A stretch of DNA of 64,000 nucleotides from Streptacidiphilus melanogenes. GTDB lineage: Bacteria > Actinomycetota > Actinomycetes > Streptomycetales > Streptomycetaceae. Position 1 is the stretch's first letter. Each line of letters starts with the position of its first letter. Where the stretch lies: the NCBI RefSeq assembly GCF_000787835.1, contig NZ_BBPP01000020.1, positions 73,283 through 137,282 on the forward strand, written 5' to 3'. The translations under genes were made by a program, and so were the position numbers. Positions 17,249-51,852 of this stretch are shown piece after piece. The notes under the pieces are model-generated. The model was given only the letters and a program-made list of their open reading frames with translations, was not told where the DNA came from and ran no database searches.

Positions 17249-17322
<74 letters not shown>

Positions 17323-17336
17323 CTGGTGAAACCGCG

Positions 17337-17372
17337 AGTAGGGCGGGCTCCTGTCAAGGAGCCCGCCCTACT
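17337..17372 (+). terminator. terminator of tRNA-Pro copy 1
   Basis: A perfect 15-bp stem (17337-17351/17358-17372) with a 6-nt loop sits 14 bp after the tRNA. The following CTGCTTTGG is weakly T-rich. Confidence 0.8.
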
Positions 17373-17438
17373 GCTTTGGCATCGCATCGTCCCGTCGGAA
17401 GCAGCCCGCCGGGTCCGGTAGAGTTCGTGTCGTTGCAC

Positions 17439-17512
<74 letters not shown>

Positions 17513-17522
17513 CTTCGCAAAG

Positions 17523-17567
17523 GCCGGAGGCCCTGTCGATCCACGTCGACAGGGCCTCCGGCTTTTT
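17523..17567 (+). terminator. terminator of tRNA-Pro copy 2
   Basis: A perfect 17-bp stem (17523-17539/17546-17562) with a 6-nt loop is followed by TTTTT. It also serves the convergent methyltransferase gene, whose stop codon begins at 17567. Confidence 0.88.
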
Positions 17568-47793: not shown

Positions 47794-48696
47794 TCAGGCC
47801 ACAGCCGGGGTGTAGTGCTCGGCCTCGTCGCCCTCGACGACGTAGCTGCCCCGGCCGTCCACGCCCACGGGCACGTCTCCGGCGACGGTGACGCGGTGCA
47901 GCAGGCGCGGCAGGTCGCCGTAGTCGTCCGGGGCGTAGTGCTGGGTGGCGCGGTTGTCGAAGAGGACCACGTCGCCCGGGTTCCAGGCGATGCGGACGAT
48001 GTTCTCCGGGCGCGTCACGTAGGACTGGAGCACCCGCAGCAGCTCCTGCGACTGCTCGCTGTCGAAGCCGAGCAGTGTGCGGGCGAAGCCGCCGATGAAG
48101 AGGCCGCGGTCACCGGTCTCGGGGTGGACCCGGACAACCGGGTGCGCGGTGCGGTACTTGCGCGAGACGAACTGCCTGCGCCGCTCCGCGGCCCGCTCGT
48201 CGCGCGGGACGGCGTAGTCGTACTCGTTGCTGTGGACCGCCCAGGCCCGGTCGGCGAACTCCCGCAGCGGCTCCGGCAGGTCCTGGTACGCGGCCTGGGA
48301 GTTGGCGATCAGGGTGTTGCCGCCGTAGGGCGGCACGACGATGCTGCGCAGCGTCGACGCCTTGGGGGGCGTGCGGACGAAGGTGACGTCGGTGTGCCAG
48401 CGGTTGGCGCGCTGTCCGGCCTCGCCGTCGACGGTCAGCACGTTGGGCTGCCCCTCGGCCGAGGGGACGGTCGGGTGGGCGGTGGTCAGCTCGCCGAAGA
48501 GCGAGGCGAACCGCTGCTGGCCGTCGTCGTCGAGCTGCTGGTCCCGGAAGACCAGGGCCTTGTGTTCGAGCAGGGCCGCGTTGATCTCGGTGACGAGCGC
48601 GGGGTCGAGCTCCCCGGTGAGATCGACGCCGAGGATCTCGGCGCCGATCCGGCCGCCGATGCGGCGGACGTCGAATCCGGTACTGGTGCTGGACAT
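47794..48696 (-). CDS. TauD/TfdA-family Fe(II)/2-oxoglutarate dioxygenase
   Basis: This 300-residue enzyme has the facial triad H101-x-D103 (RWHTDVTF) and H253 (RATQHYAPDDYG), with R268 in LLHRVTV as the 2-oxoglutarate-binding arginine. It is the last gene of a sulfonate-type ABC operon, 46 bp after the permease stop. TauD-type enzymes hydroxylate the carbon next to the sulfonate, releasing sulfite as a sulfur source. An alkylsulfonate, taurine or sulfate ester substrate fits the context, but TfdA relatives act on other acids. Confidence 0.92.
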   Translation of the reverse strand: MSSTSTGFDVRRIGGRIGAEILGVDLTGELDPALVTEINAALLEHKALVFRDQQLDDDGQQRFASLFGELTTAHPTVPSAEGQPNVLTVDGEAGQRANRWHTDVTFVRTPPKASTLRSIVVPPYGGNTLIANSQAAYQDLPEPLREFADRAWAVHSNEYDYAVPRDERAAERRRQFVSRKYRTAHPVVRVHPETGDRGLFIGGFARTLLGFDSEQSQELLRVLQSYVTRPENIVRIAWNPGDVVLFDNRATQHYAPDDYGDLPRLLHRVTVAGDVPVGVDGRGSYVVEGDEAEHYTPAVA

Positions 48697-48742: not shown

Positions 48743-49651
48743 TCAGGGGAGTCGCCAGGCGCCGAGACGGCGTTCGACGGCGACGAGCAGTTGGTTGAAG
48801 AGCACGCCGAGCACGGCGATGGTGACGATCCCCGCGTACATGTCGGGGATCGCGAAGTTGAACTGCGCGGAGTTGATCAGGTACCCGAGGCCGGCCTTGG
48901 CGCCGACCATCTCCGCCGCCACCAGCACCAGGATCGAGACGGCCCCGGCAAGCCGGATTCCGGTGAAGATGGTGGGCACGGCCGCCGGAAGGATCACCTT
49001 CTGGAAGATGCGCGGCGCCGACAGGTCCATGGACCGGGCGAGCCGCAGCAGCGTCGGGTCCACCTCCCGCACCGCGCTGACGGTGTTGAGCAGGATCGGC
49101 CAGGTGCAGGCGTAGAGGACGATGGCGATCTTCGAGGTCTCGCCGATGCCGAGCAGCAGGATGAAGACCGGCAGCAGGGCGAGCGCCGCGGTGTTGCGGA
49201 ACAGCTCCAACAGCGGCCCGAGCAGCGCGGCGACGGGCCGGTACCAGCCGATCAGCAGCCCGAGCGGCACACCGACCAGCACGGCCAGGCCGAAGCCGCT
49301 GAGCGAACGGACCAGGCTCGCCTGGGTGTTGGCCCAGAGCTGGCCGTTCGTCGCGAGGGTCCACCAGTCCTCGACGACGACGGAGAACGGCGGCAGGAAG
49401 GTGGAGTCCACCAGCCCCACCCGTGGCGCGACCTCCCACAGCACGAGCAGCGCGACGATCGCGACGGACTTGGTGACGCCGCGCAGCAGCAGCCCCGCGA
49501 GGCGGCGGCCCCACCGGCGGCCACCGGGACATGCGAGTCGGCGGGCGGGCGCACGAGGCGCTGCCGCCACCGCCGCCGCGTCCGTGGGCCGCGCCGACGG
49601 GTGCACGACGGTGCCGCCCTCCGCCACCCGCGTGTTCGTGGTGCTGCTCAT
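48743..49651 (-). CDS. ABC transporter permease, sulfonate/nitrate/taurine type
   Basis: This 302-residue protein has six or so membrane helices and the BPD permease EAA-type loop near residues 190-215. It also carries RVGLVDSTFLPPFSVV and LVRSLSGFGLAVLVGVPLGLLIGW, typical of SsuC/TauC/NtrB. It overlaps the upstream ATPase gene by 4 bp. With the ATPase and the lipoprotein it would form an importer at the membrane. The N terminus (about 1-60) is Ala/Arg-rich and cytosolic. Confidence 0.92.
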   Translation of the reverse strand: MSSTTNTRVAEGGTVVHPSARPTDAAAVAAAPRAPARRLACPGGRRWGRRLAGLLLRGVTKSVAIVALLVLWEVAPRVGLVDSTFLPPFSVVVEDWWTLATNGQLWANTQASLVRSLSGFGLAVLVGVPLGLLIGWYRPVAALLGPLLELFRNTAALALLPVFILLLGIGETSKIAIVLYACTWPILLNTVSAVREVDPTLLRLARSMDLSAPRIFQKVILPAAVPTIFTGIRLAGAVSILVLVAAEMVGAKAGLGYLINSAQFNFAIPDMYAGIVTIAVLGVLFNQLLVAVERRLGAWRLP

Positions 49652-50463
49652 GCGACCGCCCTCTCCTTCTCCAGGCGCTGCGCGAGGGCGACCTCGTCGC
49701 GCAGCAGACTCCAGATCTCGTGCCGGTGCCGGGCGAACTCGGGACTGGAGCGCAGGTCGTCCGCCTCGTGACGGCGGGCGCCCAGACCGATCGGCACGAC
49801 GTGCTTGACCCGGCCCGGCCGGGAGGTGAGCACGGCCACGCGCTGCCCGAGGTGGACGGCCTCGTCGATGCCGTGGGTGATGAAGACGACGGTCTTGCCG
49901 GTGCGCTCCCAGATCCGCAGCAGCTCGTCCTGGAGCGTCTCGCGCGTCTGCGCGTCGAGTGCGGCGAACGGCTCGTCCATCAGCAGCACGTCCGGGTCGT
50001 AGGCGAGGCTGCGGGCGATCGCGACGCGCTGGCGCATGCCGCCGGACAGCTCGTGCGGGTGCCGGTCCTCGAAGCCGGCCAGGCCGACCAGCTCCAGGTG
50101 CTCGCGGGCCCGCGCCGCCCGTTCACGGCGGGGGACGCCCGTCGCCTCCAGGCCGAACTCGACGTTGCCGCGGGCCGTGCGCCAGGGCAGCAGGGCGTAC
50201 TGCTGGAAGACGATCCCCCGGTCCAGGCCGGGCCCCGTCACCGGGACGCCGTCGAGCAGCACCCGTCCGCTGCTGGGAGTGGTCAGGCCGCCGAGGAGGT
50301 CCAGCAGCGTGGACTTGCCGCAGCCGCTGGGCCCGACCACGACCAGGAACTCCCCGGCCGCGATCTCCAGGTCCACCCCGTCCAGGGCGACCAGGTCGGC
50401 GGCCCCGCCCCGCCCGGGGAAGACCTTTCCGACGTTCTCGAATGCGATCCTCGTCGTCGTCAC
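49648..50463 (-). CDS. ABC transporter ATP-binding protein, SsuB/TauB type
   Basis: This 271-residue ATPase has the Walker A GPSGCGKST, the Q-loop VFQQYALLPWRTARGNVEFG (an SsuB/TauB hallmark), the signature LSGGMRQRVAIARSLAYDPDVLLMDEP with Walker B, and the switch His in VFITHGIDEA. It energises the permease encoded by the next gene, which it overlaps by 4 bp. The binding-protein gene ends 4 bp upstream, so the whole operon is tightly packed. Confidence 0.94.
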   Translation of the reverse strand: MTTTRIAFENVGKVFPGRGGAADLVALDGVDLEIAAGEFLVVVGPSGCGKSTLLDLLGGLTTPSSGRVLLDGVPVTGPGLDRGIVFQQYALLPWRTARGNVEFGLEATGVPRRERAARAREHLELVGLAGFEDRHPHELSGGMRQRVAIARSLAYDPDVLLMDEPFAALDAQTRETLQDELLRIWERTGKTVVFITHGIDEAVHLGQRVAVLTSRPGRVKHVVPIGLGARRHEADDLRSSPEFARHRHEIWSLLRDEVALAQRLEKERAVA

Positions 50464-50467
50464 CGTC

Positions 50468-51493
50468 TCAACTCCCGGGCCTGTAGCCGTTGTACGCGTT
50501 GGTGTAGAGGGAGGGCGCGGTGACCGACCCCTTGGGCACGGTGCCCCGGTCCGCGAGCCAGTCGAGCCAGAGCTGGAACTCGGCGTCGGTGATCCGGCCG
50601 CCGGTCTCGGCGACGCCGAAGGACTGGAAGTACTTCAGCGGCGCCGTGTTCTCGTTGCGCCCGCGCCTGCGGACGATCTCGGTCATGCGCGCCACCACCT
50701 CGTCGCGCGGGGTCCGCCGGGCCCACTCGATGGCCTTGGCGGTGCCGGTGACGAAGGTCCGTGCGGTGTCCGGGTTCTGCCGCAGGAAGCGCTTCGTCAT
50801 GACGTAGGTGCCGGCGCTGAACGCGCCGAGCAGCTGGTAGTCGGTGAAGAGGGGCCGGATGCCGCCCTTCGCCAGTGCCGTGTCGCGCAGAATGCCGCCG
50901 AGCACGGCCACCTGGATCTGCTTCTGCCGCAGCGCCTGCTCGGTGCTGACGGGCGGCAGCACGACCGGCTCGACCTGGGCGATCTCGGCGGGGCTGAGGC
51001 CCTGCCGCTTGAGGTAGATGTCCAGCATCGCCTCGTCGTGCGCGCCGAGGGTGTTGACGCCGACCTTGGCCCCGAGCAGGTCCCGTCCGGAGCGGATCGG
51101 GCTGTCCTTGAGCACGTAGAAGCCGTTGTAGGAGTACTGGTCGACGCCGTAGTAGCTGATCACCGCCTGCACGGGTGCGTGGGAGGCGACCAGCTTGACC
51201 ACCGCGCCGTTGAACGCGCCGCCGAAGTCGACCTGGCCGGTGGCGGCCGACTGGATGTCCTGCGGGCCGCTGATGGTGTCGCCCACCCAGTCCAGCCTCA
51301 CGTCGCCGAAGTAGCCGAGGTCCTCGGCCAGTTCGGGCAGCAGCACCTGGCCGGCCCAGCCCTGGTAGCGCAGCTTCTTCGTCTGCCCGCCACCGCCCGG
51401 CTCGCCTGCGGCGGCGGCCCCGCACCCGGCCAGCGTGACAGCGGCGGCGGAGCCGCCCAGGAGGGTGAGGAAACGGCGTCTGGAGGCGTGCAT
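50468..51493 (-). CDS. substrate-binding lipoprotein of the sulfonate ABC importer
   Basis: This 341-residue protein starts at the ATG at 51493, after GAAAGG. The N terminus MHASRRRFLTLLGGSAAAVTLAGC has twin arginines and a lipobox, LAGC, so a Tat-exported, lipid-anchored protein is likely. The mature part has the SsuA/THI5-like fold (FGGAFNGAVVKLVASHAPVQAVISYYG, VGVNTLGAHDEAMLDIYLKRQGL). It delivers a sulfonate-type anion to the permease. It is the first long gene of the operon and sits about 130 bp downstream of an intrinsic terminator. Confidence 0.9.
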   Translation of the reverse strand: MHASRRRFLTLLGGSAAAVTLAGCGAAAAGEPGGGGQTKKLRYQGWAGQVLLPELAEDLGYFGDVRLDWVGDTISGPQDIQSAATGQVDFGGAFNGAVVKLVASHAPVQAVISYYGVDQYSYNGFYVLKDSPIRSGRDLLGAKVGVNTLGAHDEAMLDIYLKRQGLSPAEIAQVEPVVLPPVSTEQALRQKQIQVAVLGGILRDTALAKGGIRPLFTDYQLLGAFSAGTYVMTKRFLRQNPDTARTFVTGTAKAIEWARRTPRDEVVARMTEIVRRRGRNENTAPLKYFQSFGVAETGGRITDAEFQLWLDWLADRGTVPKGSVTAPSLYTNAYNGYRPGS

Positions 51494-51624
51494 GGCGAAG
51501 GACCCTTTCTCGGGGGAACGGAATTCGGGCAGGCAGAATTCACGGCAGGTCGGACGGGGAAATCCGGCGCAACGGCGGGCAACATTCGCGCAATACCGGC
51601 GCCAGGCGCGTCGGGAAATGAAAA

Positions 51625-51653
51625 CGCCGCGCACGGGACACACGTGCGCGGCG
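51625..51653 (-). terminator. intrinsic terminator in the leader of the sulfonate operon (possible attenuator)
   Basis: On the minus strand, a perfect 11-bp stem (CGCCGCGCACG and its complement, 7-nt loop) is followed at once by TTTTCATTT. It lies between the leader-peptide stop (51699) and the binding-protein start (51493), so it would end transcription before the operon unless prevented. T tracts are rare in this genome, which makes this one notable. Confidence 0.75.
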
Positions 51654-51698
51654 AACAGGAAGGCCAGGTCAGCCAGGAGCGGCTACCGACCGGTCAGT

Positions 51699-51782
51699 TC
51701 ACCGACCGGCGGCACAGAGGGCGCTCGCCTCGCGTCGCAGATCGACGTGGCGGCGCAGTGCGAAATTCGCGGACTGGCTCAT
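51699..51782 (-). CDS. 27-residue leader peptide upstream of the sulfonate operon
   Basis: The ATG at 51782 opens a 27-codon frame, MSQSANFA then LRRHVDLRREASALCAAGR, ending TGA. The core R-x-HVDL-R-R-x-x-S-A-L-C matches a short conserved peptide seen repeatedly upstream of actinobacterial sulfur-assimilation and sulfonate uptake operons, which databases name putative leader peptide. Its single cysteine codon is near the end. The stop lies 46 bp before a terminator hairpin, so stalling on cysteine, arginine or other codons could control read-through. No strong ribosome-binding site is visible, so the start may be leaderless. Confidence 0.72.
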   Translation of the reverse strand: MSQSANFALRRHVDLRREASALCAAGR

Positions 51783-51852
51783 GGGCGAAAGCGTCGCAGC
51801 AATTCCCACCCGTCGTCAATACATTCCGGGGCGGCGTCTCGCTTTTCGAGAA
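51783..51852 (-). promoter_or_regulatory. promoter region of the leader-peptide gene
   Basis: A TTGACG hexamer reads on the minus strand about 40 bp before the leader ATG, a possible -35; the -10 is not clear. The region ends at the stop of the winged-helix regulator. Confidence 0.3.

Follow-up and report, generated by a model that had tools for sequence, protein, structure and literature searches.

Mycobacterial poly-Cys leaders, as described by Canestrari in 2020, reportedly mask the downstream ribosome-binding site (RBS) by RNA structure. Poly-Cys leaderless ORFs of M. smegmatis have been shown to respond to cysteine, according to the accessible text of three reports (PMC9031893, PMC9094748, PMC13236596). 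Leader peptides in front of cys operons without terminators were listed in 2005, when their mode of regulation was unknown, and the accessible part of the same source gives trp and leuS as ribosome-mediated attenuators of Actinobacteria (PMC1262725). The end-product amino acid is usually represented by at least two regulatory codons in attenuators of this type, as stated in the accessible part of PMC1183508. For S. lividans, the accessible text of PMC8079986 lists eight attenuators, none of them for cysteine.

Here we analyze a leader found in a 64,000-nucleotide stretch of Streptacidiphilus DNA (hereafter the window, meaning the whole stretch). An earlier note on this DNA had cautioned that the general idea of a leader peptide before sulfur genes is not new; it is indeed already known, and the peptide belongs by profile match, marginally, to the catalogued NCBIfam family NF042934, which is class-wide and found mostly before sulfur genes. 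We propose that the locus is a ribosome-mediated transcription attenuator sensing charged tRNA-Cys and controlling a TauABCD-like sulfonate operon, which sequence comparison and modelled folds make, in our judgment, somewhat probable. What is new is the complete predicted attenuator fold, the invariant UGU codon and a terminator that, within the operon type, was found only in Streptacidiphilus; no account of the invariant UGU or of the Streptacidiphilus attenuator was found in the open-licence papers searched. The antiterminator, the invariant UGU and the probably leaderless start go beyond what the earlier note foresaw. Four elements of the model are inferred: that the transcript is leaderless, that the ribosome stalls at UGU, what the signal is, and in which direction it regulates. 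With this proposal a catalogued leader-peptide family would acquire a mechanism that can be tested by mutating specified bases.

The leader, its operon and its terminator

The genes and signals of the locus are as follows.

52218-51853, same direction as the leader: upstream regulator gene (HTH_34)
51790..51819, minus strand: putative promoter, consisting of TTGACG (51819-51814), 18 nt, GACGCT (51795-51790), and 7 nt before the ATG
51782-51699, minus strand: leader ORF of 27 codons, peptide MSQSANFALRRHVDLRREASALCAAGR (ORF reading and NF042934 match)
51714..51716, minus strand: single Cys codon UGU, codon 23, the proposed sensor codon (UGU throughout the family cores)
51621..51653, minus strand: intrinsic terminator, 11-bp stem and TTTT (hairpin scans and stem conservation)
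50468..51493, minus strand: sulfonate/taurine-type ABC substrate-binding protein, SsuA/TauA-like, ATG at 51493 (PF09084)
49648..50463, minus strand: ABC ATPase of the taurine/nitrate type (PF00005; best NCBIfam match a taurine ATPase, under cut-off)
48743..49651, minus strand: ABC permease, SsuC/TauC-like (PF00528; NCBIfam matches under cut-off)
47794..48696, minus strand: TauD-family dioxygenase (PF02668, 213 bits)

The operon shares the minus strand with the leader and begins with the binding protein, which ATPase, permease and TauD follow in that order. Against the named NCBIfam models all three transporter proteins score under the cut-off (54.4 of 163.5 bits for the binding protein with TIGR01728), and it is the combined content of binding protein, ATPase, permease and TauD that points to a sulfonate or taurine uptake operon. 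The previously proposed start of the binding protein at 51493, after the leader and the hairpin, coincides with the ATG of this TauABCD-like operon.

The 27-codon ORF claimed at 51699-51782 is likewise confirmed, on the minus strand, and contains only one Cys codon and no run of them. Read from its ATG, it matches NF042934, annotated as “putative leader peptide”, with 27.5 bits against a curated cut-off of 27 (E 1.7e-6); the score is marginal, being 26.6 bits if the leader is read from the upstream GTG (51809) and 25.9 in a six-frame search, both below 27. With NF042936 (the Ms4527A family) it scores 18.1 bits against a cut-off of 45. No Rfam model matched the leader at its gathering score, the whole 64 kb giving just two tRNAs, and none matched in five orthologous leader loci.

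A scan of named genomes for relatives of the binding protein yielded 118, of which the best 80 were kept; a leader was recognized by pattern within 1600 bases upstream in 39 of these best 80 and not in the other 41, some of which have short upstream sequence. The 39 comprise two from Streptacidiphilus (S. anmyonensis and S. jiangxiensis) and 37 from other genera, mainly Streptomyces, with Streptantibioticus, Kitasatospora and Amycolatopsis; together with the window and the Streptacidiphilus genome G012 they make up 41 leaders of the TauABCD-like operon type. In 40 of these 41 the start codon (ATG or GTG) stands 11 codons before the His, and in 39 TTGAC lies 35-38 nt 5' of it. This spacing suggests a leaderless transcript, so that the leader RNA of the window probably starts at the ATG; the -10 element was assigned by eye as TAnnnT-like. 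A leaderless start for the whole of NF042934 was considered and dropped, as TTGAC occurs 30-44 nt before an in-frame start in only 63 of 152 family leaders, those of the TauABCD-like type included, and it is claimed for that type alone.

The intrinsic terminator is placed between the leader ORF and the first gene of the operon. Its hairpin (51653-51625, minus strand), whose TTTT end had been recognized beforehand, comprises 10 G-C pairs and one other, 11 in all, with TTTTCATT directly after it, and is one of only two in the 64 kb that combine at least 10 pairs with a U-tract, the other lying behind a tRNA pair. A simple scan over 9 kb finds 3 terminator-like sites, hardly above the mean of 1.8 in shuffles. 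As a separate observation, two tRNA-Pro (CGG) genes occur in tandem at 17249-17563 of the window, then a 19-pair terminator starting at 17522. The operon is present in 4 of the 14 Streptacidiphilus genomes examined, and all three besides the window retain the terminator hairpin; in G012 the U-tract is poor (TTCT) and the upper stem has changed from CACG/CGTG to CCTG/CAGG, with a bulged A.

The 37 leaders from other genera keep the peptide and UGU, 35 of them also TTGAC, and a comparable terminator is absent from them: a loose scan gives weaker candidates in 11, and a strict one flags a single locus, L150. Such a terminator is also missing from L029, a Streptacidiphilus leader that precedes a different operon. 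The anticipated order of leader, terminator and sulfur operon stands for the TauABCD-like operon within the genus, where three other Streptacidiphilus keep the hairpin, and is not supported as a general scheme by the 37 leaders beyond it. The terminator was also rejected as a feature of NF042934 as a whole: strong terminators within 170 nt are found in 8 of 254 distinct members (246 being without one) versus 2-5 in five shuffled sets. Three of the eight belong to the window clade, three to another clade (L033, L039, L040) and two are single (L150, L241). The three of the other clade, from one genus in another family of the order, have a terminator of their own, GCCTCCGAAATATTCGGAG, before an apparent luciferase-like monooxygenase gene; an additional upstream pairing is open to the first part of this terminator in L039 and L040.

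Spread of the family and its invariant UGU codon

At E 3e-4 NF042934 matches occur in all 14 genomes of the genus, in 5-12 places each, and at 1e-6 in 60 of 61 genomes of the family and 73 of 148 of the class, the window genome being included throughout. None of 14 control genomes has a match at either threshold; relaxing the search to E 10 brings up weak matches in 10 of the 14, all of them short of the cut-off. The proteins encoded downstream were tallied by Pfam (E 1e-5) for 83 of 104 listed, with 21 near-duplicates left out by hand and 5 loci without an ORF. These include rhodanese (18), luciferase-like monooxygenase (15), PLP enzyme (13), nitrite/sulfite reductase (8), FMN reductase (7), NMT1 binding protein (6), TauD (3), arylsulfotransferase (3), sulfatase (1) and cysteine dioxygenase (1); 13 downstream proteins also match models of cysteine synthase, which belongs to the PLP family. 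The profile searches and this tally uphold the statement in the earlier note that the motif recurs upstream of actinobacterial sulfur genes, and the sulfur-gene neighborhood indicates that the signal of the leader family is very probably sulfur or cysteine supply. Family leaders also occur as back-to-back pairs on opposite strands within about 600 bases (G000:C99:71887-72473 and G008:C43:256166-256678).

The last Cys codon of the core is UGU in all 197 distinct 36-base cores, which come from 261 entries (some loci entered twice) carrying at least 24 GTDB family labels. TGT is also found in 87/87 distinct cores from 120 oriented loci and in L014, which the pattern had missed; in 100/100 further HMM hits, hand-picked from genus, family and class lists with their codons unseen, the codon being taken where the HMM match ends; and in 41/41 leaders of the TauABCD-like operon type. 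Against this, TGT makes up 63 of 394 Cys codons (16%) in the long ORFs of 64 loci and 12 of 106 in the window, and the other Cys codons of the leaders are predominantly TGC, both inside the cores (100 versus 17 TGT) and after them (52 versus 15). The Asp, Leu, Arg and His of the core use several synonymous codons, with Asp in 197 of 197 (GAC 138, GAT 59), Leu in 193 and Arg in 195, including 7 AGR codons. Between UGU and the stop codon there are 1-4 codons in 156 of the 197 cores.

For E. coli attenuators, selective charging between isoacceptors has been given as the reason for codon bias (PMC1183508, accessible part). Of 73 tRNA hits in the source genome, two are tRNA-Cys genes, and GCA is the anticodon of each; preferential charging among isoacceptors that differ in anticodon therefore cannot account for UGU. 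The sequences of the two genes, at G000:C46:2402-2472 (L324) and G000:C81:81959-82030 (L360), are clearly different. The codon may instead be kept because it is read by wobble or because of a nascent-chain effect. RNA pairing was also considered as the cause and rejected, as the 5-, 6- and 7-mers that end in TGT have no excess of reverse complements at 9-150 nt downstream (2, 1 and 1 observed against shuffled means of 5.3, 1.3 and 0.5); upstream, the counts are 16, 7 and 5 against 15.0, 4.4 and 0.98, the last equaling the maximum of 200 shuffles, a weak hint. The question is why one synonymous codon, normally about 1 in 6, was never replaced in the cores examined, with the tRNA-Cys anticodons being identical.

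We tentatively suggest, as a conjecture with rather less than even chances, that Actinobacteria share a cysteine sensor in which the core HVDLxRxxSAx would prime the ribosome, such that one wobble-read UGU suffices to measure Cys-tRNA. The same sensor would be coupled to lineage-specific output modules, which in Streptacidiphilus would be an intrinsic-terminator attenuator. The contrast between Streptacidiphilus and Streptomyces suggests in the same vein that a translation sensor can persist through an exchange of its output module.

The coding core itself has a folding tendency. In the window (51714-51764, minus strand) and in family cores it folds more stably than recoded versions, the mean z against synonymous recoding lying between -1.2 and -1.3 for three groups and between -0.5 and -0.8 for another four, with the codon pool taken from the family members themselves; against dinucleotide shuffles it is -2.07 for 26 leaders of the TauABCD-like type and -1.06 for 171 others. 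The use of CGA and CGT, both rare Arg codons, in the TauABCD-like type would be explained by a hairpin in the coding region. In a family-wide covariation analysis of this hairpin no column pair stands out. Among the HVDLRR group, analyzed on 46 hand-chosen sequences of 124 listed, 11 cells are changed on both sides and the covariation score is 0.134 (each reached in 0/500 shuffles); both-side change is found in only 2 pairs (342/500 shuffles as high), further pair types number 7 (197/500), and sliding the partners by 1-3 columns yields as many as 12 cells changed on both sides. The family-wide covarying hairpin was hence rejected and is kept as a side feature only.

Predicted alternative folds and the proposed switch

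The elements of the predicted switch, all on the minus strand, are as follows.

51709-51701 and 51693-51685: two copies of CCGGTCGGT (ACCGACCGG on the plus strand)
51684..51714: hairpin H1, the anti-antiterminator, with the stop codon UGA in a UGAA loop (pairing conservation)
51697..51704: 5' strand of the antiterminator, CGGUGAAC, made of the last sense codon, the stop codon and two bases
51662..51691: hairpin B, nested in the antiterminator, its 5' arm overlapping the 3' arm of H1 (predicted folds)
51649..51656: 3' strand of the antiterminator, GUUCGCCG, overlapping the base of the terminator 5' arm

Folding was compared in the window, S. anmyonensis, S. jiangxiensis and G012, close relatives of which two are almost identical in the leader region; the nascent RNA was taken up to the terminator loop. 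Across these four sequences H1 keeps 51 of 52 pairs, with G-U/G-C exchanges, and the antiterminator CGGUGAAC:GUUCGCCG keeps 31 of 32. The duplex is predicted at -11.0 to -11.3 kcal/mol, and at -8.9 in S. jiangxiensis, where pairing is with AUUCGCCG over 7 bp. The segments UGUGCCGCCGGUCGGUGAAC and UUCGCCGCGC are common to all four (one base, C or U, varies after GAAC), and the paired segments form conserved islands within a spacer that diverges. The stalled-state folds all contain a nested hairpin, the bases of hairpin B differing in S. jiangxiensis and G012. Copy 1 of CCGGTCGGT lies in the 5' arm of H1, and copy 2 in its 3' arm as well as in the 5' arm of hairpin B; hence, the suspicion that the repeat at 51685 and 51701 takes part in alternative folding is borne out, in that the copies sit in arms of mutually exclusive predicted hairpins.

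In all four sequences the nascent RNA with the ribosome edge at nt 78-80 gives the antiterminator a probability of 0.70-0.98. In the naked nascent RNA H1 reaches 0.90-1.00 and the antiterminator 0-0.08, and with the ribosome at the stop codon the antiterminator falls to 0. Thus, in the predicted folds the antiterminator excludes the terminator depending on ribosome position, with a moderate shuffle control: of 1000 spacer shuffles for each sequence, 61, 29, 5 and 11 attain an equally strong toggle, or 88, 50, 38 and 32 under a less strict measure. We take this control of the modelled toggle as suggestive, not decisive; as shuffled spacers can reach the toggle, the case rests on conservation, any one sequence being weak evidence. 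For the full-length RNA the terminator is the preferred equilibrium fold in every state (P 0.84-0.99 for a ribosome at UGU), and the switch would therefore need to be kinetic. An alternative antiterminator drawn from the coding core, in which CGTGACGCGAGCG pairs to the 5' arm of the terminator, seemed attractive for S. anmyonensis and S. jiangxiensis and was rejected, since by eye it fails in the window and since a ribosome at UGU would cover CGTGACGCGAGCG, giving the wrong sign of regulation.

A hairpin across the leader stop is predicted at P > 0.5 in 27 of the 41 leaders of the operon type (mean 0.60; raw fold probabilities with no shuffle baseline), and the segment from 5 bases before UGU has a mean folding z of -1.12 in 26 leaders of the TauABCD-like type and -0.21 in 171 others. 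By these folds H1 is common in the TauABCD-like operon type, and the terminator is local to Streptacidiphilus.

The leading edge of a ribosome usually lies 15-16 nt from the P site. We propose that transcription starts at the leader ATG and that a ribosome follows the RNA polymerase at once. With enough cysteine it would pass UGU, reach the stop codon and cover CGGUGAAC; after its release H1 would form around the stop codon. With CGGUGAAC covered or H1 formed, the terminator would fold and transcription would end near 51621. When cysteine is short, the ribosome would wait at UGU with its leading edge near leader nt 79, blocking the 5' arm of H1 and leaving CGGUGAAC free. This strand would then pair with GUUCGCCG at the terminator base before the terminator 3' arm is made—the polymerase would read through. 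Control of read-through by translation of the leader, as the earlier note had it, is the best reading of the predicted folds, with the terminator losing its place as part of a general scheme.

The downstream switch would be unchanged if the ribosome were stalled at UGU by the nascent HVDLxRxxSAL through contacts in the exit tunnel, with cysteine or a different sulfur metabolite as the trigger. Ahead of UGU it is the amino acids that are conserved, their codons being varied, and there is one Cys codon, unlike the classical runs. However, the coding-region hairpin of the HVDLRR group explains part of the codon choice, the residue conservation could serve both levels, and no description of the core as an arrest motif was found in the literature searched; we regard such an arrest peptide as unlikely, though the best of the alternatives to sensing of charged tRNA-Cys.

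Translational attenuation of the mycobacterial type, in which a ribosome stalled at Cys opens a structure hiding the RBS of the binding protein and the terminator is incidental, appears improbable. It has been reported for poly-Cys leaderless ORFs of M. smegmatis (PMC9031893, PMC13236596, accessible text), and the 246 family members without a strong terminator would suit it. Yet predicted access to the Shine-Dalgarno sequence hardly differs between naked and stalled states in the window (0.44/0.45), S. anmyonensis (0.09/0.14), S. jiangxiensis (0.19/0.24) and L200 (0.19/0.32); these are the few usable sequences, four of 6 rows, L153 and L174 being left out as mis-picked sites.

Slightly less probable still is family-wide Rho-dependent control of a TnaC-like kind, in which release at the leader stop would expose C-rich RNA and stalling protect it, the intrinsic terminator having taken over in Streptacidiphilus. 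Over 197 members, C minus G does rise abruptly at the leader stop, where +0.04 gives way to +0.18, strong terminators are as rare as counted above, and Rho was already suggested for terminator-less cys leaders (PMC1262725, accessible part). However, the excess of C over G may be general to the 5' UTRs of these genomes, and the window itself carries an intrinsic terminator.

That the hairpin merely ends an upstream transcript and the leader ORF is not regulatory is very unlikely: the HTH_34 gene runs in the same direction, and S. anmyonensis and S. jiangxiensis also have it ahead of the leader, but no homologue of it was found upstream of the G012 leader (where the reading frame, by eye, resembles a histidine kinase), yet the leader, H1, the antiterminator strands and the terminator stem persist there, and the leader has its own conserved promoter-like -35. 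From this comparison it is the leader that the terminator accompanies, rather than the gene upstream.

Comparison with described systems

The attenuator proposed here shares with NF042934, catalogued as cis_reg_atten, the core HVDLxRxxSAxC and the sulfur-gene neighborhood. It differs in kind from that entry, an amino-acid profile whose name points to attenuation with no mechanism given and which cannot record UGU, H1 or the antiterminator. The mycobacterial poly-Cys leaderless ORFs (NF042936) are similar in being short, probably leaderless ORFs before sulfur genes with a Cys codon near the end; they have a Cys run and translation attenuation, whereas the leader of the window has one Cys and a predicted intrinsic terminator and antiterminator. 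Upstream of cysS in Rhodobacterales, uORFC-8-2 likewise combines a uORF with Cys codons, hairpins and an intrinsic terminator, but its Cys codons are in tandem with UGC dominant, the phylum and gene are different, and the HVDL core is not mentioned in the accessible text (PMC8632094).

With the classical attenuators (trp, his, leu, ilv) the locus has in common a leader ORF and a mutually exclusive anti-antiterminator, antiterminator and terminator, which in our prediction would be toggled by ribosome position. With its one Cys codon among 27 it departs from the usual attenuator form of two or more regulatory codons; unlike the classical cases, the leader of the window has a single regulatory codon, a conserved peptide core and an antiterminator strand that would be drawn from its last codon and stop codon.
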